A stretch of DNA of 64,000 nt. Source: Candidatus Roizmanbacteria bacterium GW2011_GWC1_37_12. Lineage in GTDB: Bacteria > Patescibacteriota > Microgenomatia > UBA1406 > GWC2-37-13. The notes below the pieces were generated by a model. The model searched no databases and was not told the origin of the DNA. It saw nothing but the letters and a program-made list of their open reading frames with translations. The stretch lies in NCBI GenBank assembly GCA_000991135.1, contig LBST01000004.1, forward strand, positions 1 to 64,000, read 5' to 3'. The position numbers and the translations under genes are program-made. This document shows positions 14,131-63,092 of the stretch, piece by piece; position 1 is the first letter of the stretch, and each line of letters starts with the position of its first letter.

Positions 14131-14652
14131 TTAGCGGGCTAATGAGATTTTTAAAAGGAAATTCGATAAGAAACGATAACCGTAAAAAAAGGAAAAGGTG
14201 TAGAAAAAATCAGACAGTAAAGTGTTGCGGAAAAACGGTAGACCCATGATATAACTCTGCCATAAACCATCGAGGGTTTTCGGGTACATAGAGCCGGGAG
14301 AGGCCCAGACGCCAAAGTTGGTGACGGCGAAAAACAAAACCGAGGAAAATAGACTAGCCAATACCAACGATTGCCATCGATTATTTTTAATCAATCTTCC
14401 GACCAAAACCGTCAGTATAAAACTTAAGTAAACATAAACAATCGTGTTGTGAAATCCCAGGAAGACATCGGAAATCAACATCGCTAATATTGGAATCAAC
14501 AAAGCAATTTTATTTTTGAAATGAAAGCCGGAAAATAAAGCCAGTCCTCCGATCGGAGCAAAATTTGGAGGATGAGGAATTAATCTGGCAAAAACCGCTA
14601 ATAAAATTATTGCCAAATATGAAGCGACTTTTAATATTTTTCTATTTTCCAT
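14131..14652 (-). CDS. Polytopic membrane protein, DUF6580/ECF S-component-like
   Basis: ARLIPHPPNFAPIGGLALFSGFHFKNK...AMLISDVFLGFHNTIVYVYLSF; gene context with cobalamin genes. Confidence 0.65.
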   Translation of the reverse strand: MENRKILKVASYLAIILLAVFARLIPHPPNFAPIGGLALFSGFHFKNKIALLIPILAMLISDVFLGFHNTIVYVYLSFILTVLVGRLIKNNRWQSLVLASLFSSVLFFAVTNFGVWASPGSMYPKTLDGLWQSYIMGLPFFRNTLLSDFFYTFSFFYGYRFLSNFLLKISLAR

Positions 14653-15014
14653 TCAATTTTGTCGCCCGGCTTCAATTTATAACTGCCAGCGCCGACAGTT
14701 GCCATCTTGGCATTGACATAAAAAGCCCAATATTCTTTATCAGCACTTTTCGCTTCTATTCCATTAATCCCGATAATATAAGCATTAGCGCCGTCGCCCT
14801 TTGTCACAATATCTTCTTTTTCTTTGGTTAAATCCAGAGCGGTTTTGCCCTTGGCGATTTCTTGTTTGTTAAAAACTTTTTGGCCGGTAACCTTTAAATA
14901 AACTGTAATTTTTTCCTGAACAACTGATTTTTTATTGGGTTTATACTGATAAAAAAAATACCAACCAGAACCAAGCAGGATTAACAACCCTAAAAACAGA
15001 ATAATTTTTTTCAT
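14631..15014 (-). CDS. DUF4430 (transcobalamin-like C-terminal) domain secreted/anchored protein
   Basis: TM anchor; TALDLTKEKE...GANAYIIGINGIEAKSADKEYWAFYVNAKMATVGAGSYKLKPGDKIEWKIE. Confidence 0.75.
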   Translation of the reverse strand: MKKIILFLGLLILLGSGWYFFYQYKPNKKSVVQEKITVYLKVTGQKVFNKQEIAKGKTALDLTKEKEDIVTKGDGANAYIIGINGIEAKSADKEYWAFYVNAKMATVGAGSYKLKPGDKIEWKIEKY

Positions 15015-15024
15015 AGCTTGATTA

Positions 15025-15525
15025 TTATACAACAACTTCGCGGCCGCGATTGTAAAACCGGGCCAGGGTAAAGAAAAGGTCTGAAAGCCGGTTAAGATAA
15101 ATAATTATATTATTATATTGTTTTATTGCTACAACTTTTCTCTCGGCGCGACGGCAAACAACGCGAAGTATTTGAAACCAGGCTGAAGCTTCTGTCCCCC
15201 CAGGCAAAATAAATTTATTAAGCCTTGGCAGCTTTTTATCCAGTTGGTCGATCTTATCTTCAAAGCCCTTAATGCTTATGTCTAAATATTGTAAATTAAT
15301 TTTCATTCCAGACAAACAAGACATTATTTTATAAAGATCTTTTTGTATAGATACAAGAAATTGTCTGGTCTTCTTGTCTTTTACTTTAGTAGTTACAAGA
15401 CCTACAAAGCTCGTTAGTTCGTCAACGGCGCCGTTGGCTTCGATTTGAAGATCAGACTTGGAAACTCGCTTGCCGCCAAAAAGAGAAGTAGTTCCTTTAT
15501 CGCCGGTTTTGGTGTAGATTGGCAT
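15025..15525 (-). CDS. pduO: ATP:cob(I)alamin adenosyltransferase, PduO type
   Basis: MPIYTKTGDKGTTSLFGGKRVSKSDLQIEANGAVDELTSFVG ... LRVVCRRAERKVVAI ... YLNRLSDLFFTLAR. Confidence 0.92.
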   Translation of the reverse strand: MPIYTKTGDKGTTSLFGGKRVSKSDLQIEANGAVDELTSFVGLVTTKVKDKKTRQFLVSIQKDLYKIMSCLSGMKINLQYLDISIKGFEDKIDQLDKKLPRLNKFILPGGTEASAWFQILRVVCRRAERKVVAIKQYNNIIIYLNRLSDLFFTLARFYNRGREVVV

Positions 15526-15526
15526 A

Positions 15527-17938
15527 TTAGCATTCAGAGTAACCGCAGCCATAGCACTTTTTACAGCCCTCTTCGTGGACCAAGGTCGCCTCGCCGCAGG
15601 TCGGACAGATGTCAAATGAGGTCGAAGGCGCCACTTGGGATTGTATCAAGCTTGGTTGGGTGACGGTTGTCACCAATTTTGGAGTTTCTTTGACCTCTTC
15701 GTGCATCGCGCCATTGCCCTGTAATTTCTTGGCGTCGCCGTTTAATCCGTAGTGCATGGAAAGCACTTTGGCGACGGCGTCGGGCAGACTCCTAATCTTG
15801 TCTTTGCCGAATCCGCTTGATCTGGCGCCGCCTATCCCTTGAAGCTGGCTGATGATTTCATGGACTCGCTCGGCAACAGGCAGGTGAGAGGAAAACCGCA
15901 AAGCTACAGAAACCATTCTTCCTAGTCCCTCTGCCATCGCATAAATATCGCTTCCAGCTTTACCTATCGTAATAAACATTTCCAAAGGCTCGGGCGGATC
16001 GCCGCCATTGGTGTTAAGGGTGATGAAGGCCATGCCAACTGGCGTCTGGATTTTGTAAGTCGCTCCCCTAACAACCATCGGCCTTGGTTTGACAGTATAA
16101 GGAGCTGTGACAACGGTTTTTGCTTCTTCTTTTTTATCGTCCTTGCGCTCCAAAACACCCGGTCTGGAACCATCTCTCATATAAGCAATCCCCTTACAGC
16201 CGAGTTTATAAGCCAAAGTGTAGAGTTTTTTGACGTCCTCAACCGTGTGGCTGCGGGGCGCGTTCACTGTCTTTGAAATTGACGCGTCGACATACTTTTG
16301 GATGACGGCCTGGACTGTAACGTGGTCTTCTGGAGTCAGGTCGTTGGCCGAGACAAACCAATCAGGTCTCTTTATTTTTCCGGCCTTGACTTCTTTTTCG
16401 TGTTTTTTAAACCAGGCGTCATAGAGGTAATGGCGGATGACATGGTCGCCCAGCCTGTCGTGGCGATTGAATTCAAACTCGTAGACCGGCTCGATGCCGC
16501 TTGTTGTCTCTGCCATCAAGGAGGTTGAACCAGTCGGCGCCTGCATGAGAAGGAGTGAGTTTCTGATGCCGTTTTTCTTGATTGATTTTTTGACGTTGTC
16601 TGTCAACTGACTGACGAATTTTCCCTCCAAAAACAGTTTTCGATCATATTTCGGGAAATTTCCCTTTTCTTTGGCAAAAATCGACGACGCCAGATAAGCC
16701 TCGTCCCTGATAATTTTGTAGACCTTGTCGATAAATTCCAAAGATTCAGGCGAGCCGTAACGCAAATGAAGCTTGATTAAAGTGTCGCCAAGCCCCATTG
16801 TCCCGAGGCCGATTCGTCTTTCGCCTTCAAACTGGGTCTTGCGGATTCCCGGGAATATATAAGGATCCATGTCAACGACGTTGTCTTGGAAGCGGACGGC
16901 AGTGCGGACGATTTTTTTTAGCCGGGAAAAATCAAACTCTCCTTTTTTATCTATGTTTTTGCCCTTGACCAGTGCGGAAAGATTGATCGAACCGAGGTTA
17001 CAGACGCCCCAGGCCGGAAGCCCCTCTTCTCCACATGGATTGACACAGATGACTTTGTTCCAATAGTAGTTATTATATAGTTTATTATATCTTTCAAGAA
17101 AGACCACACCGGGCTCGGCTGACTTCCAGGCCGCCTCAGCAATCAAATCCCAAATTTTCCTCGCCTTGACGATCTTGTGGACGATGACTTTCTTGCCCAT
17201 TTTCTTCCAAGCTTCCAAGTCGCCTGTCCATTTCTCATCATATTCAGGGTCTTTGAAGTCCGGAAAAACAAGTGGCCAATCAGCGTCTTTTTCAACCGCC
17301 TCCATAAAAGTGTCGGAAACACAAAGAGACAGATTGGCGCCGTTAATCCTATTCAAATCCTGTTTGACGGTAATGAACTCTTCGATGTCAGGATGCCAGT
17401 CCCAAAGCATGAGCATAAGGGCTCCCCTCCTTGTCCCGCCTTGCTGGATGATGTCTTTTGTCGCCACCGAGAAAAGCTCGGCCCAATTGATCGGCCCTGA
17501 AGAAAAACCATTGACTTTTTTTACCCTGGCGCCCCTCGGCCGCAAAGATGATAGATTAATGCCGACGCCGCCGCCTCGAGCCATAATCTCAATCATCTGC
17601 CTTAAGGTTTCCAAAATCCCGCCTCTTGAATCCTGGGGCGAAGGGATGACAAAACAGTTATAAAAAGAGACGGCAAAACCAGTGCCGGCACCAGACAAAA
17701 TTCTGCCTCCGGGCACGTATTCAAAGTCTTTTAAGACCGAATAAAATTCTTTTTCCCACTTGTCTGCCGAAGCTTTTTTAGCGAAGGCGGATTTTTTATA
17801 TCTTTTTTCAACTTCGGAGGCAGCCTTTGCTATCCTCAACCACATTTCCTCTGGTTTTTTTTCCAGAGACTTGCCGGTTTTATCCTTTAATGAATATCTA
17901 TCTAAAAAAACCTTTTCCGATATTCCTGTTAATTTCAT
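15527..17938 (-). CDS. nrdJ: Adenosylcobalamin-dependent (class II) ribonucleoside-diphosphate reductase
   Basis: YVPGGRILSGAG, RGGGVGINLSSLRPRG, NPCGEEGLPAWGVCNLGSINLS, LLLMQAPTGSTS, C-terminal CPTCGEATLVHEEGCKKCYGCGYSEC. Confidence 0.95.
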   Translation of the reverse strand: MKLTGISEKVFLDRYSLKDKTGKSLEKKPEEMWLRIAKAASEVEKRYKKSAFAKKASADKWEKEFYSVLKDFEYVPGGRILSGAGTGFAVSFYNCFVIPSPQDSRGGILETLRQMIEIMARGGGVGINLSSLRPRGARVKKVNGFSSGPINWAELFSVATKDIIQQGGTRRGALMLMLWDWHPDIEEFITVKQDLNRINGANLSLCVSDTFMEAVEKDADWPLVFPDFKDPEYDEKWTGDLEAWKKMGKKVIVHKIVKARKIWDLIAEAAWKSAEPGVVFLERYNKLYNNYYWNKVICVNPCGEEGLPAWGVCNLGSINLSALVKGKNIDKKGEFDFSRLKKIVRTAVRFQDNVVDMDPYIFPGIRKTQFEGERRIGLGTMGLGDTLIKLHLRYGSPESLEFIDKVYKIIRDEAYLASSIFAKEKGNFPKYDRKLFLEGKFVSQLTDNVKKSIKKNGIRNSLLLMQAPTGSTSLMAETTSGIEPVYEFEFNRHDRLGDHVIRHYLYDAWFKKHEKEVKAGKIKRPDWFVSANDLTPEDHVTVQAVIQKYVDASISKTVNAPRSHTVEDVKKLYTLAYKLGCKGIAYMRDGSRPGVLERKDDKKEEAKTVVTAPYTVKPRPMVVRGATYKIQTPVGMAFITLNTNGGDPPEPLEMFITIGKAGSDIYAMAEGLGRMVSVALRFSSHLPVAERVHEIISQLQGIGGARSSGFGKDKIRSLPDAVAKVLSMHYGLNGDAKKLQGNGAMHEEVKETPKLVTTVTQPSLIQSQVAPSTSFDICPTCGEATLVHEEGCKKCYGCGYSEC

Positions 17939-17941
17939 ATT

Positions 17942-18388
17942 TTATGCCAGTTTTTTTAACTCTGTCTCAAAATCTTCCAAGTCGACAAACCTTTTGAAAA
18001 CTGCCGCAAACCTAATGTAGGCAATTTTATCCAATTTTTTTAATTTTTTGGCGACCAAATTGCCTATTTCTTTGCTCTCAATCTCTGTCGTGTCTTTTTG
18101 TTTCAGGTCGGCTTCGACTTCATTAATCAGACTTTCGATCTCCTCGCTCTTAACCGTCGTCTTCTCACAGGGCAGAATTACTCCTTTTCTTAGTTTTTCT
18201 CGATCAAATCTCTCCCGCCTGCCATCTCTTTTGATTACCAAGATTGGTAATTCTTCTATCCTCTCATAGGTCGTAAACCGCTTCTCACACTTGGGACACT
18301 GTCTTCTTCTCCTTATCGCTCCTCCGTCTTCAGACAACCGAGTCTCAATGACCTCGGTGTCGTTATTTTTGCAAAATATACAAAACAT
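17942..18388 (-). CDS. nrdR: Transcriptional repressor NrdR
   Basis: CIFCKNNDTEVIETRLSEDGGAIRRRRQCPKCEKRFTTYER plus ATP-cone. Confidence 0.96.
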   Translation of the reverse strand: MFCIFCKNNDTEVIETRLSEDGGAIRRRRQCPKCEKRFTTYERIEELPILVIKRDGRRERFDREKLRKGVILPCEKTTVKSEEIESLINEVEADLKQKDTTEIESKEIGNLVAKKLKKLDKIAYIRFAAVFKRFVDLEDFETELKKLA

Positions 18389-22248: not shown

Positions 22249-23307
22249 TTAACAAACATAAAGATGTCCACAATTTTGGCAAGGGGTCCAGTTAGAACGC
22301 TCGCTGCCTATAATTTCTCCTTGCCTTAATGATCCGCAACTAGGACAATTATAATTTTTGTGTCGGTGTTCCTGCTTCATCAGTTCTTTTAGCCCTTGCG
22401 TCGTTATTCGAAAAACAGTTGACGCTGGATTGAATCTTTGGAAAAGAAAATTCTCCGGAGCAAAAGGCAGATCGTCTAATTCCATTATCGATCCACCACA
22501 AGAGCCAGCCAATAATTTTTTGGTAAGATTATTTCCTATCATATGATTAAAAATTGCTTTTTGGAAAGTCATTCTCACCACTTCCTCCGTTGTCTCTCTC
22601 CTCATCATTTCTTCAATAGTTTTGTCATAAACTTCGACATATTGTTTTTTTTTGCCTGATATTCGTTCTTGTATTTCGGCGATTATTTCTTTAATAAAAT
22701 ATTCTTTTCCTTTATGGTCAGTATAAAACGGCAGATTCTCCGGAAAACTTTTTAGATTAAAATCCGAAATCATAGAAGATAAGATTGTTTGTTTTATTTT
22801 TTCCTCCGAAGATAAATCTCCATAAAGAAAATCTTCGGCGTCTTTTGAAGTTTTTAACGCTAAACCGTCAACTTTATTTCCTTTGCGGTAGTAAAGATAT
22901 AGCTGTCCGTAATCATAGCTTATTTGTGAAAACGGATTCTCTTCATTATTATTAAACTCTGCTTTACCAATCGGACTATACCAAAGAATAGTCTTCCCTG
23001 GATTTTCAACCAAAAGTTTCTCTAGATTTTTAAAGCCTTCGATATAAACGCCGTCTCTTTCTTGGGGATTAAACATGGCGCTCGCCAGATGTTTTTTGTC
23101 AGGATTCGGTTGAAGATATAATCGACTATCCTGCCCTAACCAATAATTAAATATGTTCGATACCGGTTCGTCCCTGATGACTTCGTTGACATAACTTTCA
23201 AGGTGTCTTTGAAATTCAAACTGCCTTTCTTGAAGAGAAAGTCTGGAAAAACGGAGCGTTTGCGCCCTAGGGTCAATCCCTAATTGTTTTAATTCAGATA
23301 AAGCCAT
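22249..23307 (-). CDS. Uncharacterised protein with C-terminal double-CxxC zinc ribbon, downstream of a cobalamin riboswitch
   Basis: 353-aa ORF from ATG 23307 with AGGAG 4-5 nt upstream; CPSCGSL...CQNCGHLYVC. Confidence 0.8.
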   Translation of the reverse strand: MALSELKQLGIDPRAQTLRFSRLSLQERQFEFQRHLESYVNEVIRDEPVSNIFNYWLGQDSRLYLQPNPDKKHLASAMFNPQERDGVYIEGFKNLEKLLVENPGKTILWYSPIGKAEFNNNEENPFSQISYDYGQLYLYYRKGNKVDGLALKTSKDAEDFLYGDLSSEEKIKQTILSSMISDFNLKSFPENLPFYTDHKGKEYFIKEIIAEIQERISGKKKQYVEVYDKTIEEMMRRETTEEVVRMTFQKAIFNHMIGNNLTKKLLAGSCGGSIMELDDLPFAPENFLFQRFNPASTVFRITTQGLKELMKQEHRHKNYNCPSCGSLRQGEIIGSERSNWTPCQNCGHLYVC

Positions 23308-23328
23308 ACTCCTTGCTCGAGGTAAGAA

Positions 23329-23420
23329 GGCTTTGGTGGTCTCGGACTCTCCCGACTTAGTCGGGATCACCGTTGCGGCACAGTGGCTGATTTACACAGC
23401 CTTCCCAAAATCAAAGCCAA
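23329..23420 (-). promoter_or_regulatory. Cobalamin (B12) riboswitch
   Basis: Minus strand: TTGGCTTTGATTTTGGGAAGGCTGTGTAAATCAGCCACTGTGCCGCAACGGTGATCCCGACTAAGTCGGGAGAGTCCGAGACCACCAAAGCC. P1 GGCTTTG/CAAAGCC; GGGAA, GCCGCAACGGTGA and AGTCCGAGACCACC resemble the conserved B12-box segments. Confidence 0.88.
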
Positions 23421-23429
23421 TTGATAAAA

Positions 23430-24503
23430 TTACTCTGCTAGTCTTTTTTTAAAATAATCGACATATGGAATTATTTTCGGATTTTGTTCGTAGAGAACTG
23501 ATAAATACATTGATAAGTAACTACCTATAGCCATGAGTTCAAAAGTCTGCTCGATCTTATTTTTTCCTTTTAATTCGTACCAAAGCGTTGAAATCTTGTT
23601 CTGTTCAACAACATCTTTTGTTATCGCAAATCTCTTTTGAATTTTAGTTGAATAAAGATTTGAATAAAAGAAAACAAAAGTTAAAATCTCTTTTAATTTG
23701 TCGGGAAATTTTAGTCCTTCCAGAAAGTGATGATTTAGCTCTGGAATTATCCTAAAGCTAGAAATAGACTTGGCGGTTTCGTTTGTTTGATTGGCAATTG
23801 AATTACCTATGCCGGTCAAAAATTCGGAAACAATATAATATGGATATCTCTGGTAAAGCTTTGTGGCCAATTGTTTTATTTGATTATTATCTTTTCCTAT
23901 ATCCACTTTAAAATCTTTGATTAAATTCGATAAATTGCTAATTGACTGTTCTATTTCTTGTCTGGCTGATTTAATAAACCCTAATTTGAATAACATACCT
24001 AAGTGGCCTCCGACAAAATAACCAAAACCTATCCTTGGTTGTCCTGATGGATTAAATACTGGGTCGATCACATAACGAGGATAGTTGTTTTTCTCCAAAA
24101 ATGTTTTTAGATCTCCACCGATAGTAATACCGCATATTTTTGCTCCTTTTTTGACTGCTTTCTCCCCGCAGATTAGGACTTCTTCTGTTGTCCCAGAATA
24201 GGAAGATAAGATCACCAAAGTATTATTGTCGACGAATCCTGGCAGGCTGTAATCGTCATTAATTATATAAGGAACAGCTAATTCTTCTTTAAACAGTTCT
24301 TTAATAATAAAGCTGGGGAATCTCGAACCTCCTTGACCGCAAACTACAATCCGATTAACAGTTTTAAAATCTTCAGGAAAGGAAATATTATATGAGTCTT
24401 TAAAAGACTGTTCTAACTGCCGGGGAAGATTATCGATCGATTTTATTACTAAATCACCTCCTTGAAGTTCTAGGATTCTTTTTATATCGTCGAGGTCGAT
24501 CAT
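23430..24503 (-). CDS. SIS-domain bifunctional phosphoglucose/phosphomannose isomerase-like protein
   Basis: VVCGQGGSRFPSFI, LVILSSYSGTTEEVL, ELNHHFLEGL. Confidence 0.88.
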   Translation of the reverse strand: MIDLDDIKRILELQGGDLVIKSIDNLPRQLEQSFKDSYNISFPEDFKTVNRIVVCGQGGSRFPSFIIKELFKEELAVPYIINDDYSLPGFVDNNTLVILSSYSGTTEEVLICGEKAVKKGAKICGITIGGDLKTFLEKNNYPRYVIDPVFNPSGQPRIGFGYFVGGHLGMLFKLGFIKSARQEIEQSISNLSNLIKDFKVDIGKDNNQIKQLATKLYQRYPYYIVSEFLTGIGNSIANQTNETAKSISSFRIIPELNHHFLEGLKFPDKLKEILTFVFFYSNLYSTKIQKRFAITKDVVEQNKISTLWYELKGKNKIEQTFELMAIGSYLSMYLSVLYEQNPKIIPYVDYFKKRLAE

Positions 24504-40562: not shown

Positions 40563-40950
40563 TGGTGGAGATGGCGGGAGTTGAACCCGCGTCCGAGAAA
40601 ACACTCATATAGATTTTTAGTTGGGGTTAGATTATTTTTACTCTTGTTTGCCCGCTTAAATAATCAAATCGTAACAAACAGCTGATTAGGGTTGTCGACT
40701 CAAGATACAATCAGTTACTTTCAAGAGCCTTATTCCGATTGGTTTATCCCTCATATAGATTGAATCGGAAGAAATCTAAAGAGAGCCCGATTAGTTAACG
40801 TAGGCAAAGTTCATATTTGCATATGACCTAGCCAACATCGCTTCTCGGAAATCTGACAATTGCTTATCAGTTATTGTTTCCGTTTAACGCAACAGGTGCG
40901 CCCCAACGATCTATAAAAGTGCGAATTTCCCGTCGATGCCTTGCATCCCC
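40563..40950 (-). ncRNA. ssrA: Transfer-messenger RNA
   Basis: 5' GGGGATGCAAGGCATCGACGGG, 3' GGACGCGGGTTCAACTCCCGCCATCTCCACCA; acceptor GGGGATG/CATCTCC; adjacent to smpB. Confidence 0.95.
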
Positions 40951-51422: not shown

Positions 51423-53906
51423 TTATTTATCATTTGTCATTTGTAATTTTTCTTCCATCCTCATTGTCCTTTCCACAGCTTTCGCTTTCGGTCTGGCAAC
51501 TTCTACTTTTTCGCTTTCGGCTTTTAACTTTTCCGTAATCTCTTTTTCCTTGTCAAAAAGTTCCTTAACGGTCTTGGCGGCTTCAATCTTGGCCTTAAGA
51601 TAGGTCACAAGCTGTTCTCCATTGAGGCTGTTGACCATGAAGATCGGCAAAATATAGCCGATTTCATCCAACCCCTCGTGTTTTAATTCGGCATTTTCCG
51701 AAAGCAGTTTATTCAATGTGTTAGTAATCATGACGATGTCATTGTCAACCCAGCGGTCACGAGTTTTGATATTTTCGGTTGTTGGCACTTCACCTTTTTC
51801 ATACTGATCTACCCACATTTTTTTTACCTGTTCATACTCGTCGATGGAAACGGTTTGCGGAATCATTACTGACTGTTCGATATTTTTTTCCGGTTCGGCG
51901 ACTAACGGCGCCTGGGCAGCGACCACATCTTTTACTTCTTGGGGCTTGAGGCTCTGTTCGCTCGCGACTGATTCGGCAATCTTCATGTCTGTTTTCACAA
52001 TGACAGAGTATTCTTTTATGACCGCGACTACCTTAGTTTTGTCTAATTTTACCTCTGTAGAAATTTTTTGAACAATTGTATTCGGAGACTCTGCTAGAGA
52101 TTGATGAAACACACTAATTATTTCTTGAATTTTTCCTTCTTCAACGCCGGTTTTTTTGGAAAGGTCAGAAATTAATCCGGCGTTACCGGAAACATAGTTG
52201 GCAACTGAAGAAGAGACTTGTTGAATTTTCTCTCGTGGCAGTTTTACTTTGACGGAAACCACTTGAGTCACCGGAACCATTTTTGGCAGCGTCGTAATAA
52301 TGGCGCTTCGATTTTTTACCCGTTCAAGTGGTGGAGCAAAGACCGATGAAACGATCCGTCCGGCCAAAGGATCGGCCTTAACGGCGCGGTTGGACAACTC
52401 AACCCTAATATTCATATAGCGCTGTCTTTCGCTGGCGGTTGTGGCTTGAGTCGGATTTTTCAAATAGTTTATATTCTGGGTCGACTGCTTGTTGGTTTCA
52501 AAACGGGCGACGTCGGTGATTTTTGTGGCTTGAATGTCAAGCGAACGAACGATCTCTTCGGTTTTGGCTTTTTTGATTTCTTCGACCGTCTCTATTCTTG
52601 TTTTTGCAAAAGTTTCTACTTCTCTGGGAATTTTTAAAGCCGCGCCAAGATTTGTTGTCAAATTAACAGGAGAAAGAGAAGGACTTGGCCCGCCGCTTCT
52701 GCCCGGGCCGAAATTTGAAAGCAACAGGTTCTTTATAGCGTTGATGCCGTCACAACAGTAGTCGCGGAACGTACGAAGCAACCACCAAGGGAAAATTGTC
52801 ACCGCCCAGAGCATGATCAAAGTGATGATGTATTCGGCGTATGGATCAATATAATTTACATTGTTTAAGGTGTTAAGTTTTTGCGCCGGGCCACCCCAGA
52901 GAATGTTTGTGGCTGTCGGATAGACATATCCAACTATAGTATTACTTCGAGAAAAGTCAAAAATAAAAGGAATCCCACCTTTCCAAATCGTCGCCAATCC
53001 TCCTAAAAACAAAGACAACAACGGACCATAAAAAACCCATTGAAAAAAAACACCCACCCAAATCCAACCGATGTTTTTTGAAAAAGAAAAGGAAAAAAGA
53101 ATCGGCAAAAAAGGAGAAGCAAATAATAAAAACCAAAGAATTATTTTTCGCAAGAGTATCATCCCTCCCATCAAGTAATAACTGACATTTGTCAACTTAA
53201 GGGTAAATAGTTGGGTCTTTATCGACTCCTGGACTCTGATATTTAGGTCTTTCAAACCAACAAAGTCAATGTAACCCATCTCCGTGCTCGTTCCGGAAAA
53301 ATAGATATTAAAAAGGTCTTTTCCTCCAAGATTCTCGACGAAAAATTTCATTATCAAATCGGAAAGCTGGACAATAGTAATAACAACCGTAGCAGAGAAT
53401 GAAATATAGAGAATTGAGGTTAAAATTTTCATCACCGACGGCCAAACTTTGACGCCGGTATCAAAATTTGTCCTTTGGCCGATAATAATTCCCAGTCCCA
53501 AAAGGGCAGCTGTCAAAATGACAAAAAAATAACTCAAATTTCTCGCCGTCGACCAAATTTTTATCAGAACCGGGTGATTATCAATTGAAGGATGAGTCAT
53601 CACCCAGTAGATAAACTGGCGCGCCCTGTCATTGGATTTGCCTTGGGTTGTCACCTCTTCGTCTTCCACCCAATAATGATTGACTCCGGGATTGCTTTGA
53701 AATTCTTGATAGTTGGTCGTGCACTTTTCCCCCTTGCCTCTTTGTTGATAGATCTGGACGAGCTCTTGCGGGCATTCATAGCCTTGAGGAGCGGTCGTCG
53801 CCGGCGGGGTTGATGTTGGTTGTAGTTGTCGTTGGGCAAAAATAGAAAAAGGGTTTAAAAAAACAATCGCAAGAAGAAAGATAATGCTAAACAACCATTT
53901 TTTCAT
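51423..53906 (-). CDS. VirB6/TrbL-like type IV secretion membrane protein with long C-terminal domain
   Basis: Signal peptide, several TM helices, large helical C-terminus. Confidence 0.55.
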   Translation of the reverse strand: MKKWLFSIIFLLAIVFLNPFSIFAQRQLQPTSTPPATTAPQGYECPQELVQIYQQRGKGEKCTTNYQEFQSNPGVNHYWVEDEEVTTQGKSNDRARQFIYWVMTHPSIDNHPVLIKIWSTARNLSYFFVILTAALLGLGIIIGQRTNFDTGVKVWPSVMKILTSILYISFSATVVITIVQLSDLIMKFFVENLGGKDLFNIYFSGTSTEMGYIDFVGLKDLNIRVQESIKTQLFTLKLTNVSYYLMGGMILLRKIILWFLLFASPFLPILFSFSFSKNIGWIWVGVFFQWVFYGPLLSLFLGGLATIWKGGIPFIFDFSRSNTIVGYVYPTATNILWGGPAQKLNTLNNVNYIDPYAEYIITLIMLWAVTIFPWWLLRTFRDYCCDGINAIKNLLLSNFGPGRSGGPSPSLSPVNLTTNLGAALKIPREVETFAKTRIETVEEIKKAKTEEIVRSLDIQATKITDVARFETNKQSTQNINYLKNPTQATTASERQRYMNIRVELSNRAVKADPLAGRIVSSVFAPPLERVKNRSAIITTLPKMVPVTQVVSVKVKLPREKIQQVSSSVANYVSGNAGLISDLSKKTGVEEGKIQEIISVFHQSLAESPNTIVQKISTEVKLDKTKVVAVIKEYSVIVKTDMKIAESVASEQSLKPQEVKDVVAAQAPLVAEPEKNIEQSVMIPQTVSIDEYEQVKKMWVDQYEKGEVPTTENIKTRDRWVDNDIVMITNTLNKLLSENAELKHEGLDEIGYILPIFMVNSLNGEQLVTYLKAKIEAAKTVKELFDKEKEITEKLKAESEKVEVARPKAKAVERTMRMEEKLQMTNDK

Positions 53907-53909
53907 ATT

Positions 53910-54467
53910 TTAAAGGTTTTTAAAGACTATAAGCCCTGTCCCGGCGAGGATAAGAAAAATTAATCCAAAAGCAATTTGGACAAAATTACCATTGACTCCA
54001 GACGTAGGCAGAGCCGTAGGTAGAGGTGGAGAAGTGGCAATGGGCGTTGGTGTGCTTTCGGCCGGATTAAACAAGGCGCAAAGTTGGGTTGACCCGGGGG
54101 CGGTTGCGATTAGTTTAAAAGTCACATAAGCAAAAGCGCCGCTTCCTGAAAAGCCAGATGGAGAGCTGCCGGTAATAATCAACTTGCCGTCTCCTTGGGG
54201 ATCGGCAGAAATAGTCGCAAACGTATTTCCGGCCGATACCGAGATATACTCAAGGTATTTTGTATCATATGTCATCCCAATTCTCGTTGATGTTGAAGAC
54301 TTCCCCTCTGTATCCACATTAATAGTAAATTTAATATCCTGTCCTCGTTGAAGCTGTCCCGACGGAGCAATTAAATCAAAGGTAATGGCCGACACAGAGT
54401 TTGGAACTATAAATATGGTAAGTAAAAAAATAAAGATTATAAAAAATCTTTTTAGATAGTTTTTCAT
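53910..54467 (-). CDS. Cohesin-like domain protein with C-terminal LPTSG-TM-Lys tail
   Basis: ITFDLIAPSGQLQRGQDIKFTINVDTEGKSSTSTRIGMTYDTKYLEY...; ALPTSGVNGNFVQIAFGLIFLILAGTGLIVFKNL. Confidence 0.65.
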   Translation of the reverse strand: MKNYLKRFFIIFIFLLTIFIVPNSVSAITFDLIAPSGQLQRGQDIKFTINVDTEGKSSTSTRIGMTYDTKYLEYISVSAGNTFATISADPQGDGKLIITGSSPSGFSGSGAFAYVTFKLIATAPGSTQLCALFNPAESTPTPIATSPPLPTALPTSGVNGNFVQIAFGLIFLILAGTGLIVFKNL

Positions 54468-54492
54468 TCTTCATCCATCATACTCTAATTTG

Positions 54493-56157
54493 TCATCTTT
54501 TTTCAACATTAAACAGCGGGCCGACGATTTGAATATTTGAAGGTGCGCGCAAATTAAACCAGTCTTTAAACTCCGAGGCAGAAAAAGAAGCGTTTCCTCC
54601 GTCGCCGGAAAAATTAACAGAAGAACTTCTGCCTGATCCAAAGTCAGCTCCAACCGAAGCGTCAGAAATCGAAGAAAAAGGATTAATTCCTCTTGACCTT
54701 AATTCTGATTTTACTTTTTCAAAATCCCATGTGTCTGTGCCGGCTGGATTTGACTTGTCGACTTGATACAAATGGTCGCGTGTCGACGGGTCGTTTTTGA
54801 CCAAAAGAATAATGTTGACGATATCGGCTAACTCGTCTGATTTTAACCAGGCGGTTTTATTGTATTCTCCCCTCGACCCCCAATCGCAGTAAAACCAAGG
54901 CGAATCACGGTCATAGGCGCGGCTAGATAAATCGGCAAAGCTTCCGATCGATCCATCAAAATCGTTCGCGTGTTTGGTCCAAGAAGTTCCTGACCAACCG
55001 ATTTCACCCGATGAAAAAACATAACCGCCGTGGGTCGACGAATACCATGCTTTGATCGGCGACCCGCCCTGATACATTGTTAATCCTTCAGTTTCTCTCA
55101 CCGCCTGGTCCCATGCTCCTGTTTTTGGATCATCATGAAACACCTGGCAATTCTCCGAATCGCAAATTGATCCCGCCCCATTGTTTGTATAGGCCAAAGC
55201 GTAGGAACGAGCAGCGATCGCTTGGGCCTTAAGGACTTCTATGTGCCAAGATTCTGGCACCTCGTAAATGCGTTTTACATAATCTTCCAAACTATAGGTG
55301 TTATGACCATCAACTTTTATTTGTATGTTTTCTGCTTTTTTCATCTCGTCAAAATTATAATAAGCTCTTAATATTGTTTCATAGTTTTGTCCTGCTTCAG
55401 CCCTTCCTTTAGCTCCATACTGGTTTAGGCCAACCCTATTTGGAACTCCATAAGTAAACATTGCAAACCTGGGAGAAAAACCTGGGTCGCGTCCGTTAGT
55501 CAGATCGCTGTCACATCGACCAAGCGTTGAGGCGGAGCGGGAGATGTTTAGGCTTGCTTGCTTTTGGGCGATTAAGTCTTGTTGGCGGGCTGACAGTTGG
55601 GCGATCTGCGTCCTCGTCTGACTGATCTGTCCGGCGAGAATTTTTGACTGGGAGTCAATCTCCTGTTTCAAGCTAGACAAACCTAATTTCTCAGTTTCTA
55701 AATCTCTTTTAATATCTTCGAGGTTTTTTATGTATAAAACGACTTTGATAATCGTATTTTTGTCTTGGTCGACCAAAGACTGTTGATAAAAAAATCCCCG
55801 AAGAGATTCTGATAAATTATCAGACGTCAAGACCGTCAATAAATTAAGCGAGTTTTTGTTGATGTTTTTGTAATAAGACCGGGCTCTTTCATTGAGGAGA
55901 TTTTTTTGATAATCCAAGGCTTCTTCTCCCTTTTTTACTTCAGCTTCTTTTTTGCCTATTTCTACCTCAAGATTGTTGACTCTTTTTTTGATGTCGTTCA
56001 ACCTTGAATTTAATTGTTGATAGTTGGATTCTTTGGCGTTTAGGTCTTTTCTTAAAGACTCAAGAGCTTTTGTTACGTCTTCAAGCTCGTCGGCGCGGAC
56101 AAAAAAAACAGGAACAATAACTATTAGTAAAAAAAACAAAAGAAAAAATCTCCTCAT
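54493..56157 (-). CDS. SpoIID/LytB-domain protein with N-terminal coiled coil
   Basis: YSLEDYVKRIYEVPESWHIEVLKAQAIAARSYALAYTNNG...WYSSTHGGY. Confidence 0.88.
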   Translation of the reverse strand: MRRFFLLFFLLIVIVPVFFVRADELEDVTKALESLRKDLNAKESNYQQLNSRLNDIKKRVNNLEVEIGKKEAEVKKGEEALDYQKNLLNERARSYYKNINKNSLNLLTVLTSDNLSESLRGFFYQQSLVDQDKNTIIKVVLYIKNLEDIKRDLETEKLGLSSLKQEIDSQSKILAGQISQTRTQIAQLSARQQDLIAQKQASLNISRSASTLGRCDSDLTNGRDPGFSPRFAMFTYGVPNRVGLNQYGAKGRAEAGQNYETILRAYYNFDEMKKAENIQIKVDGHNTYSLEDYVKRIYEVPESWHIEVLKAQAIAARSYALAYTNNGAGSICDSENCQVFHDDPKTGAWDQAVRETEGLTMYQGGSPIKAWYSSTHGGYVFSSGEIGWSGTSWTKHANDFDGSIGSFADLSSRAYDRDSPWFYCDWGSRGEYNKTAWLKSDELADIVNIILLVKNDPSTRDHLYQVDKSNPAGTDTWDFEKVKSELRSRGINPFSSISDASVGADFGSGRSSSVNFSGDGGNASFSASEFKDWFNLRAPSNIQIVGPLFNVEKR

Positions 56158-56228
56158 AAAATTATTATACTCAAAAGATCTCTCACTTCGTTCGGGATGA
56201 CGGGGAGAGGATGTGTTATACTTTTTCT

Positions 56229-56852
56229 ATGAGACGATTTTTAATATTCTTACTTGTTGTTTTTTCATTTTTTTCATATGACAATCTCGTGTCAGCCCAA
56301 AGGAGAACGCCAACTCCAGAACCGTCGCCAACTATAGAACAAACAGCTCCAACCGTCGCCATTCAAGAACCAGCTGGGCCTCGATATGCTGCTTGCGATC
56401 TCTGCGGATACTGCCCACCCAATAACCCACCCCAAAGTTGGCCAGCCTGTCAAAAATGTCTTTACCCAAACATTAATCCTGACCCGTCAGTCATGGAAAG
56501 CCTTATAATCAATCCCGAAACTAACACTCCTGTTGCCGCCGCCCCTGGTCGTCAATACACATTTTTGGGATGTTTTGGGGGGCAGGGTAATTTTTCTGAT
56601 GAAGGCTCGGCTGGAGCCGTAGTCCAGTCAATTCTCAACATTATTTTCTCTCTTGCCGGAGGGATTGCTTTTCTTTACCTTCTTTATGGCAGCTTTATCA
56701 TTACCACTTCTCAAGCTGACCCGGAAAGACTAAACTACGGAAAAAGGCTTGTCTGGGGAGCGATTATTGGCCTAGTTTTTACACTAAGCAGTGTCCTTAT
56801 AGTAAACTTTATTGCTTCAAATGTCCTAAAAGTACCGGGGTTTGGAGAATAA
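56229..56852 (+). CDS. TrbC/VirB2-like pilin family protein with Cys/Pro-rich ectodomain
   Basis: Signal peptide; CDLCGYCPPNNPPQSWPACQKC; two C-terminal TMs with TTSQADPERLNYGKRLVWGAIIGLVF. Confidence 0.6.
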   Translation: MRRFLIFLLVVFSFFSYDNLVSAQRRTPTPEPSPTIEQTAPTVAIQEPAGPRYAACDLCGYCPPNNPPQSWPACQKCLYPNINPDPSVMESLIINPETNTPVAAAPGRQYTFLGCFGGQGNFSDEGSAGAVVQSILNIIFSLAGGIAFLYLLYGSFIITTSQADPERLNYGKRLVWGAIIGLVFTLSSVLIVNFIASNVLKVPGFGE

Positions 56853-56867
56853 TATTTGACTATTTGG

Positions 56868-57206
56868 TTATTTTGATTTTCTTAGGAATAACCCTCCAAC
56901 AGCTCCTGCCAATAAGGAAGGAATAAACAAGGTAGGAATACCTGTTGCTGGAATTGTCCCTGGTTTTGTTGGCGTTTTTGTTAACTCCGCCTTGTAGTTG
57001 TTTCCTAAAACGCTACCACCTTGACCGTCAATTTTTACAGTTGAAATCGGGGTTGGAGTAGGAGAAGCTGTTGGTTTTATTGTTATTTTTGAAAAAGGAG
57101 ACGAAAACTTTCCTGGCAATTTTAACCTGCCGGTAACGACGGCAAAAAAGACCAAAACGACAACCAGGCCGAGGACAAATGAAATTACCTTATTAAAACT
57201 ATCCAT
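56868..57206 (-). CDS. Small membrane protein with C-terminal IPATG-TM-KSK motif
   Basis: GTIPATGIPTLFIPSLLAGAVGGLFLRKSK. Confidence 0.5.
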   Translation of the reverse strand: MDSFNKVISFVLGLVVVLVFFAVVTGRLKLPGKFSSPFSKITIKPTASPTPTPISTVKIDGQGGSVLGNNYKAELTKTPTKPGTIPATGIPTLFIPSLLAGAVGGLFLRKSK

Positions 57207-57293
57207 ATAGTATTTATTATATCATAGGGCCTGCTAATAAGCAAATACTACAAATAAGCAAATAAACAAATAAATGTTGTAATATTAAAATAT

Positions 57294-57836
57294 ATGGAAC
57301 AGAATCCGCAGATAGTTTTTTCTTGGAGAGCCCCGCTTCGACCATACAAAAAACAAACTGGTTTAATCCTTCGTTTTTATTTGGCCGTTGCCCTCCTTCT
57401 TTCGGCGATTATGTTCTTTTTTGGAGACAAAATCCTTTTAATCCCTATCTGGGCGATAGTTTTTCTCTTCTATGTTCTGACAATTACCCCCCCGCCTGAA
57501 GTAGATAATAAAATCACCACCTTCGGCATTGACGCCGCCGGCACCACTATGCGCTGGGAAACTCTTTCCCACTTCTATTTTGGGAAAAGATTTGGCTTTT
57601 ACACCTTGACCGTTGTCAGTCATGCCCCTTATTTTTATCACGCCTACCTGGTCGTCCCCAACGAAAGCATAAAAAACAAACTAATACAGATTCTTTCCCA
57701 ACACCTTGTTTTCCAAGAAAAGCCGCAAAAAACCATGACTGACAAAGCCGTAGACTTCCTGTCCAATCTTATTCCTGATGAGGTTGAAGGAGAGACTGAA
57801 GTCGTTTTACAAAAACTGAAGCGGGTATCTCTTTGA
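57294..57836 (+). CDS. Membrane protein of unknown function
   Basis: Two N-terminal TM helices, soluble C-terminal domain, located near T4SS-like genes. Confidence 0.5.
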   Translation: MEQNPQIVFSWRAPLRPYKKQTGLILRFYLAVALLLSAIMFFFGDKILLIPIWAIVFLFYVLTITPPPEVDNKITTFGIDAAGTTMRWETLSHFYFGKRFGFYTLTVVSHAPYFYHAYLVVPNESIKNKLIQILSQHLVFQEKPQKTMTDKAVDFLSNLIPDEVEGETEVVLQKLKRVSL

Positions 57837-58407
57837 CGCCAAAAACCCTACCCCAATGCAAAACCCCTTCGTCTGTTGAGACCAAAAAACCGTCTTTTTG
57901 TTTTGCCAAAACGATTAGGTCAAGGTCTGTGACGCTGTCCAAAAAACCAGTTCTCGTCGCATTTCTATATCTCTCTCTAAATTTTTTTATAAAACCGCCA
58001 ATGGCGATTTGAAAATCTTTTTTTATATCGATTTTTTTTCCTGAAAAATCAACAGCTGTTTTTTCTATCTCTTCCTCGGCGATGTTCATTCCTCTATAGC
58101 TTCTTCCCCTAACGTCATCAACCAGCTTATAAAATATACTGGCCGAAAATGACGCCTTGGTTAGGTCGGGAGATTCTACGTTGATAGCTGAAAGAAAGTT
58201 TTTAATAAAACCCTGGTTTTTTTCTTCAAAAAAACTCAAAAATTCGTCGACGGCTCTAGGCGGCATAAAAAAAGAGGCGGACCTGTTTTTCTTCAGGCCT
58301 AAAATCGTTTTTGTTAAATTGACAACGACGTCTTCTGTTTTGTTTCCCAAAGACAACCCCGCCTCCATATTAAAAAAAAGATTTGTGTCTAAAATAAAAG
58401 TTTCCAT
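57769..58407 (-). CDS. PIN-like RNA ligase partner protein (UPF0278-like)
   Basis: FILDTNLFFNMEAGLSLG...MPPRAVDEFLSFFEE...TRTGFLDSVTDLDLIVLAKQKDGFLVSTDEGVLHWGRVFGVKEI. Confidence 0.75.
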   Translation of the reverse strand: METFILDTNLFFNMEAGLSLGNKTEDVVVNLTKTILGLKKNRSASFFMPPRAVDEFLSFFEEKNQGFIKNFLSAINVESPDLTKASFSASIFYKLVDDVRGRSYRGMNIAEEEIEKTAVDFSGKKIDIKKDFQIAIGGFIKKFRERYRNATRTGFLDSVTDLDLIVLAKQKDGFLVSTDEGVLHWGRVFGVKEIPASVFVKRLQSLLQPHQE

Positions 58408-58408
58408 A

Positions 58409-59506
58409 TTATTCTTGGATTCTTACAGGCATAATTATGTGTAAAAAATCTTCGTTTTTTTCTCCTTTAAACGCCGCTGGAGAGTTTGGTCTTAACAACT
58501 CTATAATTATCTTTTCTGAAGGAACGTTGTTTAAAAAATCAATTACAAATTTAAAATTAAAGGCTATTCTTATCTCTTCGCCGTCGACCTTTGACTCTTG
58601 ATAGGCGACATTAGTATCCGACCCACCTGTCTTGGGACTTAATTTTATCCCGTCGCGACCAACGTCAAGAATGATAATGTTGGAAAAATCACGAGCAAAA
58701 ACCGAAACAAGCCTGACGTTTCTTAAAAATTCACCCTTGTCCAAAACAATGCTTGTTTTTTTCTCTACCGGAATAACTTTTTCATAGGGAGGATAGTCTC
58801 CTTCTATCAGCCTTGTCGAGATCTCATTGTCTCCTAGGTAAAAAGTTAAAAGCTTTTCTTCTTCTTGAAAATTAAACAGGACTTCTTTTTCGTCTCTGAT
58901 CAAGCGACTCATTTCAAAAAGAAACCCTGAAGGGACAATCATTGAAGAAAACGGGGTTTCTTTTTTTAGATTAAGGAGAGAAAGACGAAATCCGTCTGTG
59001 GCAACAATCTGATTCGTACTTTCTCTTGCAACAAAGTTTATCCCTGTTAAAACCGGTCTGGTCTCGTCTGTTGAGGCGGAAAAAAGCAAAAGGGGGAGAG
59101 TCTCTTTTAGAAAAGATGTCTGTATTTTCTGTTTTTCTGATGTCGAGCGTGGAGGAAGAGGAAATTCGTCGGGAGAAAAAAGGGAAAATTCACCTTTAGT
59201 TTTACCTTGTGAGATAATGACTGATTTTTCTTTAAACTCAACTTCAATTTTTCCCGAAGATAAGAGAGATAAAAACTCGCTGATTTTTTTAGGCTCAATA
59301 ACAATCTCAAACTGATGGTTTTCCTCTGTATTTAAAAAACTATGATAATAATAGTTAAGGTTTGTCGAATAAAAATGAATTTGTTTTTTTTCTCCTTTCA
59401 AAAAAACTCCTTGAAGGGAGGTTGAAGAAGAAAGTTTGTTTGAGGCAAATTTAGAAGCAAGGTTAATTTTTTCTAAAAACAGGTCCTTATTTATTTCTAT
59501 TTTCAT
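58409..59506 (-). CDS. dnaN: DNA polymerase III subunit beta (sliding clamp)
   Basis: Length, position next to dnaA; DETRPVLTGINFVARESTNQIVATDGFRLSLL; C-terminal IIMPVRI. Confidence 0.93.
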   Translation of the reverse strand: MKIEINKDLFLEKINLASKFASNKLSSSTSLQGVFLKGEKKQIHFYSTNLNYYYHSFLNTEENHQFEIVIEPKKISEFLSLLSSGKIEVEFKEKSVIISQGKTKGEFSLFSPDEFPLPPRSTSEKQKIQTSFLKETLPLLLFSASTDETRPVLTGINFVARESTNQIVATDGFRLSLLNLKKETPFSSMIVPSGFLFEMSRLIRDEKEVLFNFQEEEKLLTFYLGDNEISTRLIEGDYPPYEKVIPVEKKTSIVLDKGEFLRNVRLVSVFARDFSNIIILDVGRDGIKLSPKTGGSDTNVAYQESKVDGEEIRIAFNFKFVIDFLNNVPSEKIIIELLRPNSPAAFKGEKNEDFLHIIMPVRIQE

Positions 59507-59625
59507 AATAGTAATATTTAAATAGTCGTAATAGGTAGTGTGTATAAGTGTATAAAAAGAAGGTTAGATTTTCAAGACAAAATAAACTCGGCTTTTTACC
59601 TGTGGAAGAGGGGTGGACACTGTGT

Positions 59626-60954
59626 TTATATATTTAACGATTGGAAGATTGTCTCAACCTCTTTTTTAAAATTTTGGTCCCTCATCATTAAATTAGAAAT
59701 TTTTTCTTGGGCGTGGAGAACGGTCGTGTGGTCTTTTCTTTTTAAAACTTCGGCAGTTTCCATCAATTTTAAGCCGACGTGCTTTCTGATGAGATACATG
59801 GCAACTTGCCGAGGGAGGACAATTGCCTCGTTTCTTTCAGGACCTCTTAAATGCGACTGTTTGACATTGTAATAAGTGCAAACAGCCTTAATAACGTCAG
59901 AAGGACCTATTCTTTTAACCTTGTTTACTTCTTTTTTGGAAAAAAACTCCTCCACAGAATCCAGGTCGATCTTATCTTTTTTGCCAAGAATATTTGCATA
60001 AAGAGAAAGAAGAGTTCCTTCAAGGGTGCGCGAATCAGAGTCCCTTTCGGCAATTACCTTGGCGGCTTCGATGTCGACGCTGATGTTTTTTTCCTTTGCC
60101 TTAATAAGGAGAATGGCTGTTCTTAATTCAAAGTCTGGCGATTGAATGTCGACTGTCAGGCCTCCGGAAAAACGAGATCTCAACCTGTCTTCTAAATTTT
60201 TGATTGAGGTCGGTGGTCGATCTGAGGTCAAGATGATCTGTCCGCCAGAAGAGATTATCGAGTTGAAGGTGTGAAAAAATTCTTCTTGAATATGGGCTTT
60301 TCCGGCGATAAATTGAATATCGTCGATAATAAGAAGGTTGAGGTGGCGATACTTTCTCCGGAAGAGGGGCGTGGTTTTATCCCTAATTGCTTCGATTAAC
60401 TCGTTGGTAAAGTTGTCTCCAGGACAAAAATATACTTTTTTGTTTTTATCCGCTTCGAGAATTCTCTTGGCGACTGATTGAGCAAGGTGAGTTTTTCCAA
60501 CACCAACGCCGCCATACAAGAAAAGGGGATTGTAGGCGGATCCCAGATTATTGACGACGGCCTGCGCCGCCGCATAGGCGACCTGGTTAGTTGAAGACAC
60601 GGCAAAGTTTTCAAAACTGTATCTTTTGTTAAGGCCTGATTTGGCAAAGAGGTCTTCTACAGCTGGTTCAAAGGCGAGGAGAGGTGAGACAACCTTCTTT
60701 CTTAACGTTGGCGAGACAATAAATTCTACAGAAAGATGCTTTTTAAAATTTTGATAAATATGTTCTTCGATTTCATTAAGGCGAGGGTCGAGAAATTTTT
60801 TTATTCCCTGATTATTACAGCCAATAACAAGAGTTCTTTCAGTCAGCTCAACCGGCCTGGTTTGTTTTAGAACAGAATATAATACGGACTTTTCACCCTT
60901 AATTTCTTTAAATTTTGCTAAAAACTCATCCCAAAAAGAGCCTAAGAGAGACAT
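59626..60954 (-). CDS. dnaA: Chromosomal replication initiator DnaA
   Basis: YNPLFLYGGVGVGKTHLAQSV, LLIIDDIQFIAGK, LEDRLRSRFSGGLTVDIQSPDFELR, C-terminal KDHTTVLHAQEKI. Confidence 0.97.
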   Translation of the reverse strand: MSLLGSFWDEFLAKFKEIKGEKSVLYSVLKQTRPVELTERTLVIGCNNQGIKKFLDPRLNEIEEHIYQNFKKHLSVEFIVSPTLRKKVVSPLLAFEPAVEDLFAKSGLNKRYSFENFAVSSTNQVAYAAAQAVVNNLGSAYNPLFLYGGVGVGKTHLAQSVAKRILEADKNKKVYFCPGDNFTNELIEAIRDKTTPLFRRKYRHLNLLIIDDIQFIAGKAHIQEEFFHTFNSIISSGGQIILTSDRPPTSIKNLEDRLRSRFSGGLTVDIQSPDFELRTAILLIKAKEKNISVDIEAAKVIAERDSDSRTLEGTLLSLYANILGKKDKIDLDSVEEFFSKKEVNKVKRIGPSDVIKAVCTYYNVKQSHLRGPERNEAIVLPRQVAMYLIRKHVGLKLMETAEVLKRKDHTTVLHAQEKISNLMMRDQNFKKEVETIFQSLNI

Positions 60955-61020
60955 ATTTTATATTTGTGGATAACTTGTCCACAAATAATAAACAAATTCA
61001 CAAAGGAAGTCAAGAGGAAG
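60955..61020. promoter_or_regulatory. DnaA-box pair upstream of dnaA, candidate origin/autoregulatory site
   Basis: TGTGGATAA (60965-60973, reverse of TTATCCACA) and TTGTCCACA (60975-60983), forming TTTGTGGA-N7-TCCACAAA. Confidence 0.7.
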
Positions 61021-61881
61021 TTAAAGTTCTCCAAGGCCTTCTTTTTTTTGCACTTCTTCTTTGACAAGGTTGAGGAAGCGTTCGGTAGAAGATAGTCTTT
61101 TATGTCCGACTAAACGGGCGATATACTCGACTGATGCCCCTTGTCTTAACTGGTGGGCGATAAAAGTATTTCTTAGATCGTTGACTGTAGCGCCCTTAAT
61201 CTCTACTTCTCGAAAACAACGGGCGATAATTTGCCTGATGTTTCTTATCAAGAGCGGGTGGCCTGTGCGGGTGATGAAAAGACGGTCGTCTTTTGTCTGT
61301 GGCCTGATTTTTAGATAGTCGTCAACGGCTTTTTTTACCGCTTTGTTTAAAGGAATATCTCTTTCTGGGGTTTTTCCATAGTCTCGAATATGGATAATAG
61401 AACTGTTAACATCTCCGACTCTTAAATTAGAAAGTTCTCCGATTTTCATGCCAGTCTGGAGAAGAATCTCGACCAAAGCATAGGTGCGGGCGTCTTCTTT
61501 GGCAAAGTCTCTTAAGGCTCGATATTCAAGTTTGGTAAAAATTCTCGGCGGCGATTGGATATATTTTGGGTGAGAGACGTCGAGCGATGGGTTTTGGTCG
61601 ACAACACCCTCCTGTTTTAAGTATCTAAAAAAAGTTCTTATAGAGTTGAGTTTTCTTGACGCAGATTTTTTTGTATAGTTGTCGGCGATTAATTTATCAA
61701 TAAAAGAGGTGATATTGTCTTTTTTTACTTCTCTAATGTCTTGGACTTCTTTTCCTGTTAAAAAACCAACAAACTGTTCCAAATCTTTTTTATAGGCTAT
61801 GATCGTGAAAGATGATTTTCCTTGGGCCTCGAGATGTTTAATAAATCTCTCAACCAAAGATGGTAGTAGGACATTATCCAT
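61021..61881 (-). CDS. Tyrosine-recombinase-fold (XerC/D-like) protein with degenerate active site
   Basis: Overall XerC/D architecture; TGMKIGEL, VNDLRNTF, VGHKRLSSTERFLNL. Confidence 0.88.
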   Translation of the reverse strand: MDNVLLPSLVERFIKHLEAQGKSSFTIIAYKKDLEQFVGFLTGKEVQDIREVKKDNITSFIDKLIADNYTKKSASRKLNSIRTFFRYLKQEGVVDQNPSLDVSHPKYIQSPPRIFTKLEYRALRDFAKEDARTYALVEILLQTGMKIGELSNLRVGDVNSSIIHIRDYGKTPERDIPLNKAVKKAVDDYLKIRPQTKDDRLFITRTGHPLLIRNIRQIIARCFREVEIKGATVNDLRNTFIAHQLRQGASVEYIARLVGHKRLSSTERFLNLVKEEVQKKEGLGEL

Positions 61882-61935
61882 AACGCCCTATAATATATCA
61901 TATTGTTCAAGTGAATTCAAGGTGTCCATTTTCTG

Positions 61936-61964
61936 TTGAGTTTTTAGCTGTGCTTTGGTATATT
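61936..61964 (+). promoter_or_regulatory. Sigma70-type promoter for the S1-domain protein gene
   Basis: TTGAGT-17 nt-TATATT. Confidence 0.5.
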
Positions 61965-62008
61965 ATTAAATCTGCTCGCGAGAAAGCGGCGCAAAGGAGA
62001 ATTGAAAG

Positions 62009-63091: not shown

Positions 63092-63092
63092 A

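Follow-up and report, generated by a model that had tools for sequence, protein, structure and literature searches.

Cobalamin riboswitches elsewhere regulate B12-independent RNRs, an example being nrdAB of Streptomyces. Bacteria of the CPR are mostly uncultured and cannot make most cofactors, and many of them need adenosylcobalamin (AdoCbl) for DNA precursors via NrdJ. A literature search returned no account of cobalamin riboswitches in CPR bacteria or Patescibacteria. The env8 riboswitch contains a P13 hairpin and an L5-L13 kissing loop in which a bulge of 1 to 2 nt is required, and it represses translation (PMC10907184), while class IIb cobalamin riboswitches are defined by GGAA at J3/4 and UCU at J6/3 (PMC11260477). 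Among proteins, DUF4430 sits at the C-terminus of transcobalamin (PMC4350170), and BtuH of the Bacteroidetes is an accessory B12 binder of a transport system (PMC8941943). At the locus described below, an orphan protein is probably under the control of a kissing-loop translational OFF cobalamin riboswitch and a regular member of the Microgenomates cobalamin/class II RNR module.

The window is a stretch of 64 kb, in which a cmscan against 4,227 families identified an RF00174 match at positions 23317 to 23431 on the minus strand, with a score of 38.6 bits (gathering threshold 31.5) and an E-value of 3.1e-6. In the whole genome (994,505 bases, Microgenomates/CPR) the match had an E-value of 1.2e-8 and was present as a single copy, no second one being found. 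On one side of the riboswitch is the gene for a phosphoglucose/phosphomannose isomerase (24503 to 23430), and on the other is a 352-aa ORF whose ATG is at 23307. The initial annotation had described a 92-nt element in front of a 353-aa protein; the covariance model match spans 115 nt, and the protein has 352 aa plus the stop codon. All of the core elements listed there were recovered on the minus strand: P1 (5' strand GGCTTTG at 23412 to 23418 and 3' strand CAAAGCC at 23329 to 23335, read from the sequence and the MFE fold), GGGAA, P4 (GGCTG/CAGCC), GCCGCAACGGTGA, a perfect hairpin (TCCCGAC-TAA-GTCGGGA at about 23366 to 23350), and AGTCCGAGACCACC. Sequence and cmscan agree that the conserved RF00174 core, consisting of P3 GGGAA, P4, GCCGCAAC, and GAGACC, is present in order. 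The aptamer is compact, with a single short hairpin of 7 bp in place of the P8-P12 extension, a mark of class I (AdoCbl), and some relatives had longer aptamers. Of the class IIb features, GGGAA is present and UCU is absent from AGUCCGAGACCACC, with the junction borders judged by eye. The folding energy of the whole region was unexceptional (z = -1.2). By its sequence, the element is a genuine cobalamin riboswitch.

It had been claimed that the element ends about 20 nt before the ATG at 23307, with AGGAG in between. The distance from the end of P1 to the ATG is 21 nt, and AGGAG is present as part of a Shine-Dalgarno sequence, AAGGAG (23309 to 23314, minus strand), but at only 1 nt from the start codon (aaggag-t-ATG), compared with about 5 to 8 nt from GGA(G) to the start in relatives. 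The start codon is backed by 2 homologues with 61% to 63% identity (L043 and L004). The Shine-Dalgarno sequence lies partly within a hairpin, P13 (CCT-CGAGCA-AGG, 23311 to 23322, minus strand), which was recognized as the expression platform from a motif survey, controls, and covariation. The general form of the motif is YYY-CG(n)GCA-RRR, with a CG(n1-3)GCA loop on a 3-bp stem whose 3' strand is part of the Shine-Dalgarno sequence. Of 74 distinct aptamer cores, 63 carried the motif, a few of them with looser loop matches. Among control genes with ORFs of at least 150 aa it occurred in 5 of 588; all five were family members, which leaves 0 of 583. In an alignment of 32 distinct sequences, somewhat selected in that they were picked by hand from 95 motif hits with evident chance matches dropped, all three pairs of the stem varied on both sides, with 30 double-changed cells versus 9.3 ± 4.7 after shuffling and a covariation score of 0.79 versus 0.12 to 0.44 when slid. 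A pairing of AAAGCC in the P1 3' strand with GGCTTT at the start codon, specific to the window, was absent in the relatives read and was dropped.

The CG-n-GCA loop of P13 is complementary to UGCCG in L5 (TGCCG at 23376 to 23380, minus strand, in the context CTGTGCCGCAAC that predominates in relatives), with n bulged, and a tertiary contact is predicted from the sequence. The RF00174 core, the L5-L13 complementarity with a bulged nucleotide, the position of P13 near the ribosome binding site, and the compact aptamer without P8-P12 are all shared with the env8-type translational kissing-loop riboswitches. Unlike in env8, where the ribosome binding site has been described in the P13 loop (PMC10907184), the Shine-Dalgarno sequence here overlaps the 3' stem of P13, and the target is a protein family that appears not to have been described before. 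The riboswitch type is a known one. Because env8 represses translation, we infer from the Shine-Dalgarno hairpin and the env8-like bulge in the L5-L13 complementarity that this riboswitch, which would bind cobalamin, acts as a translational OFF switch, the protein being produced when cobalamin is scarce. With cobalamin bound, L5 would dock onto L13 and keep the P13 hairpin shut over the Shine-Dalgarno sequence, so that initiation would be blocked; when cobalamin is scarce, the hairpin would open and the protein would be made. The translational control suggested initially gained support from the covarying Shine-Dalgarno hairpin with its L5-complementary loop; aptamer and hairpin are computational observations.

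A search of 57 relatives with the protein only identified homologues in 24 genomes, and in an independent RF00174 search of the same 57, every one of these 24 had a match immediately in front of the homologue, none of these orthologues having lost the element. The match was above the gathering threshold in 20 genomes and weaker but correctly placed in the other 4 (G009, G032, G042, and G045). That the RF00174 match represents a decayed remnant or one with no regulatory role, as the short aptamer, the modest score, the z-value of -1.2, and the tight spacing before the ATG in the window might suggest, is hard to reconcile with an aptamer retained upstream of every protein-detected homologue and with the covarying hairpin, and we regard it as very improbable.

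At the level of the class, RF00174 matches with E-values of at most 1e-3 were present in 176 of 373 genomes, nearly always in one copy. In a sample of 88 riboswitch-downstream ORFs, which is enriched in close relatives and in the hits with the best scores, 69 resembled the zinc-tail family: 67 were at least 200 aa long with a C-terminal four-cysteine ribbon, and 2 (L041 and L045) were aligned members with an altered ribbon. The subgroup profiles were linked to each other, with an hhalign probability of 97.6% for A2 versus A5 (E = 2.8e-12) and of 94% to 99% for the other subgroups to at least one core profile. The exceptions behind RF00174 were DUF4430 proteins, metE, an ATP-cone ORF, a few short ORFs, and proteins of 480 to 830 aa. 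The latter were considered as distant family members and rejected, since hhalign gave no convincing relation; they were observed in other families of the class (L089, L094, L105, L109, L111, L112, and L046), several with a hydrophobic C-terminal stretch. The metE gene (L027/L187) follows a 98.7-bit cobalamin riboswitch that differs from the rest in the group, on a 4.2-kb contig (G001:C12) that may be a contaminant.

Outside the class, RF00174 was followed by DUF4430-like proteins at five of the loci read (3 of 3 checked with Pfam were positive), and no member of the zinc-tail family was found behind RF00174 at any locus read. The arrangement is like that of the DUF4430 B12 regulons, in that RF00174 precedes DUF4430 proteins in other classes of the phylum and the same genes co-occur here. 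It is unlike them in that the switch in this class usually targets a distinct protein of the zinc-tail type, which in many cases has a riboswitch to itself.

In the window, a block of 5 genes on the same strand (18388 to 14131, minus) begins roughly 4 kb past the point where the riboswitch-controlled gene ends. It consists of nrdR for the RNR repressor (17942 to 18388, an ORF in a conserved neighbour cluster, named by eye from sequence and position), nrdJ for the AdoCbl-dependent class II RNR (15527 to 17938; TIGR02504, 546 bits, cut-off 400), a pduO-type cobalamin adenosyltransferase gene (15025 to 15570; TIGR00636, 170.6 bits; PF01923, 1.5e-51), and genes for a membrane-anchored DUF4430 protein, a candidate cobalamin binder (14631 to 15035; PF14478, 1.3e-19), and a DUF6580 membrane protein (14131 to 14652; PF20221, 4.6e-49). 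The cmscan of the window gave no RF00174 match for this block itself, and the location of the riboswitch gene outside the nrdJ operon counts against our explanation.

In relatives, where genes were named with Pfam in some cases and by eye or clustering in others, the 2 units were often joined. The order was nrdR-nrdJ-pduO-riboswitch-protein on one strand in L159 and nrdR-nrdJ-pduO-DUF4430-DUF6580-riboswitch-protein in L173, and the same block was kept nearby in L163, L166, L169, and L171. In family f30, nrdJ was followed by pduO-riboswitch-protein at six intact loci (L205 to L207 and L209 to L211), and the contig of L208 ended just after the riboswitch. Furthermore, the order was DUF4430-DUF6580-riboswitch-protein in L212, riboswitch-DUF4430-DUF6580-riboswitch-protein, with two switches in one short operon, in L174 and L176, and similarly riboswitch-DUF4430-DUF6580-protein in L175, where the first riboswitch alone was read. 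A single switch preceded all genes but nrdJ in L213 (nrdJ-riboswitch-small ORF-DUF6580-pduO-protein). Among the hits listed, RF00174 and DUF6580 were within 6 kb on the same strand in 19 of the 39 genomes having both, a linkage that makes the DUF6580 family a candidate for B12 transport. Two further computational observations are that the switch is deeply associated with a single protein family and that this family is linked to nrdJ, pduO, DUF4430, and DUF6580, and the repeated linkage supports the B12-related function initially proposed for an organism with an AdoCbl-dependent RNR. In L154 and L155, the riboswitch and its gene were situated among cell-division/wall genes, with an ftsW-like gene on one side and a murG-like gene on the other, which indicates that the pair occupies varying genomic positions.

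The linkage to DUF4430, DUF6580, and pduO, together with the repeated occurrence of this switch before genes for uptake, fits a role in cobalamin acquisition or hand-over. Our tentative guess is that the protein acts inside the cell and passes scavenged corrinoid to the adenosyltransferase or to NrdJ; the cysteine of a conserved GSC[G/P] motif might then bind cobalt or serve in redox chemistry, and docking might fall to the exchangeable zinc ribbon. The linkage to nrdJ also fits a protein that supports, protects, inhibits, or partly replaces NrdJ at low AdoCbl, and does not handle cobalamin. In favour of such a factor, nrdR-nrdJ-pduO-riboswitch-protein was the commonest operon form seen, B12 switches control B12-independent RNRs in other bacteria, and NrdJ matches (E-value at most 1e-30, assessed by eye) were found in 161 of 176 riboswitch-bearing genomes versus 141 of 197 without; a weak second RF00174 match in G033 points the same way, located before an ATP-cone ORF and class I RNR-like fragments. 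However, no RNR barrel or family match was obtained with Pfam or NCBIfam, the protein is far more divergent than an RNR, DUF4430 and DUF6580 are linked to the switch as well, and 15 of the 176 genomes, some with weak riboswitch matches, had no NrdJ match at this threshold by eye, a finding that tips the balance a little towards the handling of cobalamin and away from a role confined to RNR. The zinc ribbon was considered as a mimic of the NrdJ C-terminal tail, and this was rejected because the hhalign probability of 86% against NrdJ was about equalled by that of an unrelated ComF ribbon (75%), so that the likeness is not evidence. A role on the RNR side is, in our view, unlikely. The locus in G033 (L117/L186 4103 to 6987; G033:C5 at about 17.1 to 20 kb) has an RF00174 match of 20.9 bits, below gathering, an ATP-cone ORF, and broken class I RNR-like frames, and is possibly a B12-independent RNR under a B12 switch. 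Compared with Streptomyces nrdAB, it is similar that a gene connected with class II RNR would be repressed by B12, whereas the protein here has no RNR family match.

The orphan protein itself (22249 to 23307, minus strand) has an alpha/beta core according to alignments and a model, a GSCGG motif (C270), a zinc ribbon (C321/C324/C343/C346), and a terminal cysteine, C352. Searches of Pfam, NCBIfam, and PHROGs gave no family match for it, only a sub-threshold zinc ribbon, with no Pfam zinc-ribbon model above its cut-off, and neither Pfam nor NCBIfam holds a name for the family. The family profile had no significant match to PDB sequences, and a compact-family profile had weak matches to ribbon-like stretches only. 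Homologues were not found in phage, plasmid, or viral collections, and an origin of the gene from such elements was dropped for this reason. Proteins with 57% to 59% identity occur in two records labelled "Candidatus Microgenomates bacterium" and "Candidatus Roizmanbacteria".

The cysteines of the two CxxC knuckles (C321, C324, C343, and C346) were invariant across 27 sequences. In the near family, R84, S111-P112, Y131, G134-Q135, GSCGG (C270-G271; family motif G-S-C-[G/P]), R300, the ribbon cysteines 321, 324, and 346, and C352 were invariant or almost so, joined by cysteine 343 in the wider alignment, and no conserved His/Asp metal-binding pattern was found beyond the cysteines. The window protein (17 sequences, pLDDT 75.6, pTM 0.68) and the compact homologue L078 (20 sequences, pLDDT 87.1, pTM 0.78) were modelled with AlphaFold2, and both models had the order beta-beta-helix-beta-beta-beta, as in PAS-like or longin-like folds. 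Foldseek searches with the two models against the PDB and with one against viral structures gave no match with an E-value below 0.001; the best value for the better model was 0.17, the TM score was about 0.4 at best, and many of the top rows were PAS domains. We treat a PAS/longin-like core as a lead from the models and not as an assignment. The topology shared with PAS domains and the PAS domains among the top rows would suit a sensory or regulatory protein, in which a sensor core and a zinc-ribbon output relay B12 or redox status. This is rather improbable, given that the match to PAS domains is not significant, that the topology is common to longin/profilin-type folds, and that no DNA-binding, RNA-binding, or kinase domain is attached.

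The family diverges very rapidly, core identity falling to about 20% to 32% even within one genus. L004 and the window protein have cores that are 60% to 63% identical and different types of C-terminal ribbon, and one ribbon type is common to remote family members, which indicates that tails behave as interchangeable modules among the members. The idea that the tail is a general CPR protein tag was rejected, the window tail type being confined to riboswitch-controlled family members in the 57 genomes. Rapid divergence, modular tails, and varying genomic positions could also reflect an outward-facing B12-scavenging factor, induced by starvation, exported without a classical signal, and shaped by varying partners, and T4SS-like genes are present in the same window. 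Such a factor seems quite improbable, as no signal peptide or TM stretch was apparent by eye in the zinc-tail family, no export signal was identified, and the operon is shared with intracellular enzymes. Like BtuH, the protein would be an accessory factor encoded at a B12 locus and has no relation to the classical transporters, and it is set apart from BtuH (PMC8941943) by the zinc ribbon and by having no obvious export signal. The type IV secretion-like cluster (51423 to 63947) contains VirB6-like, pilin-like, and VirB4-like ORFs identified by eye.

For the cobalamin-handling explanation that we prefer, fast divergence and tail swapping are unusual in a simple chaperone or enzyme, and they remain unexplained by handling, RNR-side, and sensory roles alike; the absence of a metal pattern beyond the cysteines and of a fold match at E < 0.001, and the 1-nt gap before the ATG, also count against it. 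We rate it slightly better than an even chance that the zinc-tail proteins are a class-wide component of the CPR B12 economy, namely a new kind of factor that acts inside the cell, either handling cobalamin or supporting RNR, that is induced when B12 runs short, and that combines a rapidly evolving core with exchangeable tails. The pairing of switch and protein marks the latter as a so far overlooked element in the response of these bacteria to B12 shortage, and a protein that was only hypothetical can now be tested for a role in B12 biology. A riboswitch-tagged family across one CPR class offers a direct handle on how the need for B12 is met, with the riboswitch itself telling when the gene should be on. 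Elsewhere in the window, a tmRNA (40563 to 40950) has an unusual predicted tag of 25 residues (DKQLSDFREAMLARSYANMNFAYVN), the end of which differs from the common LAA.
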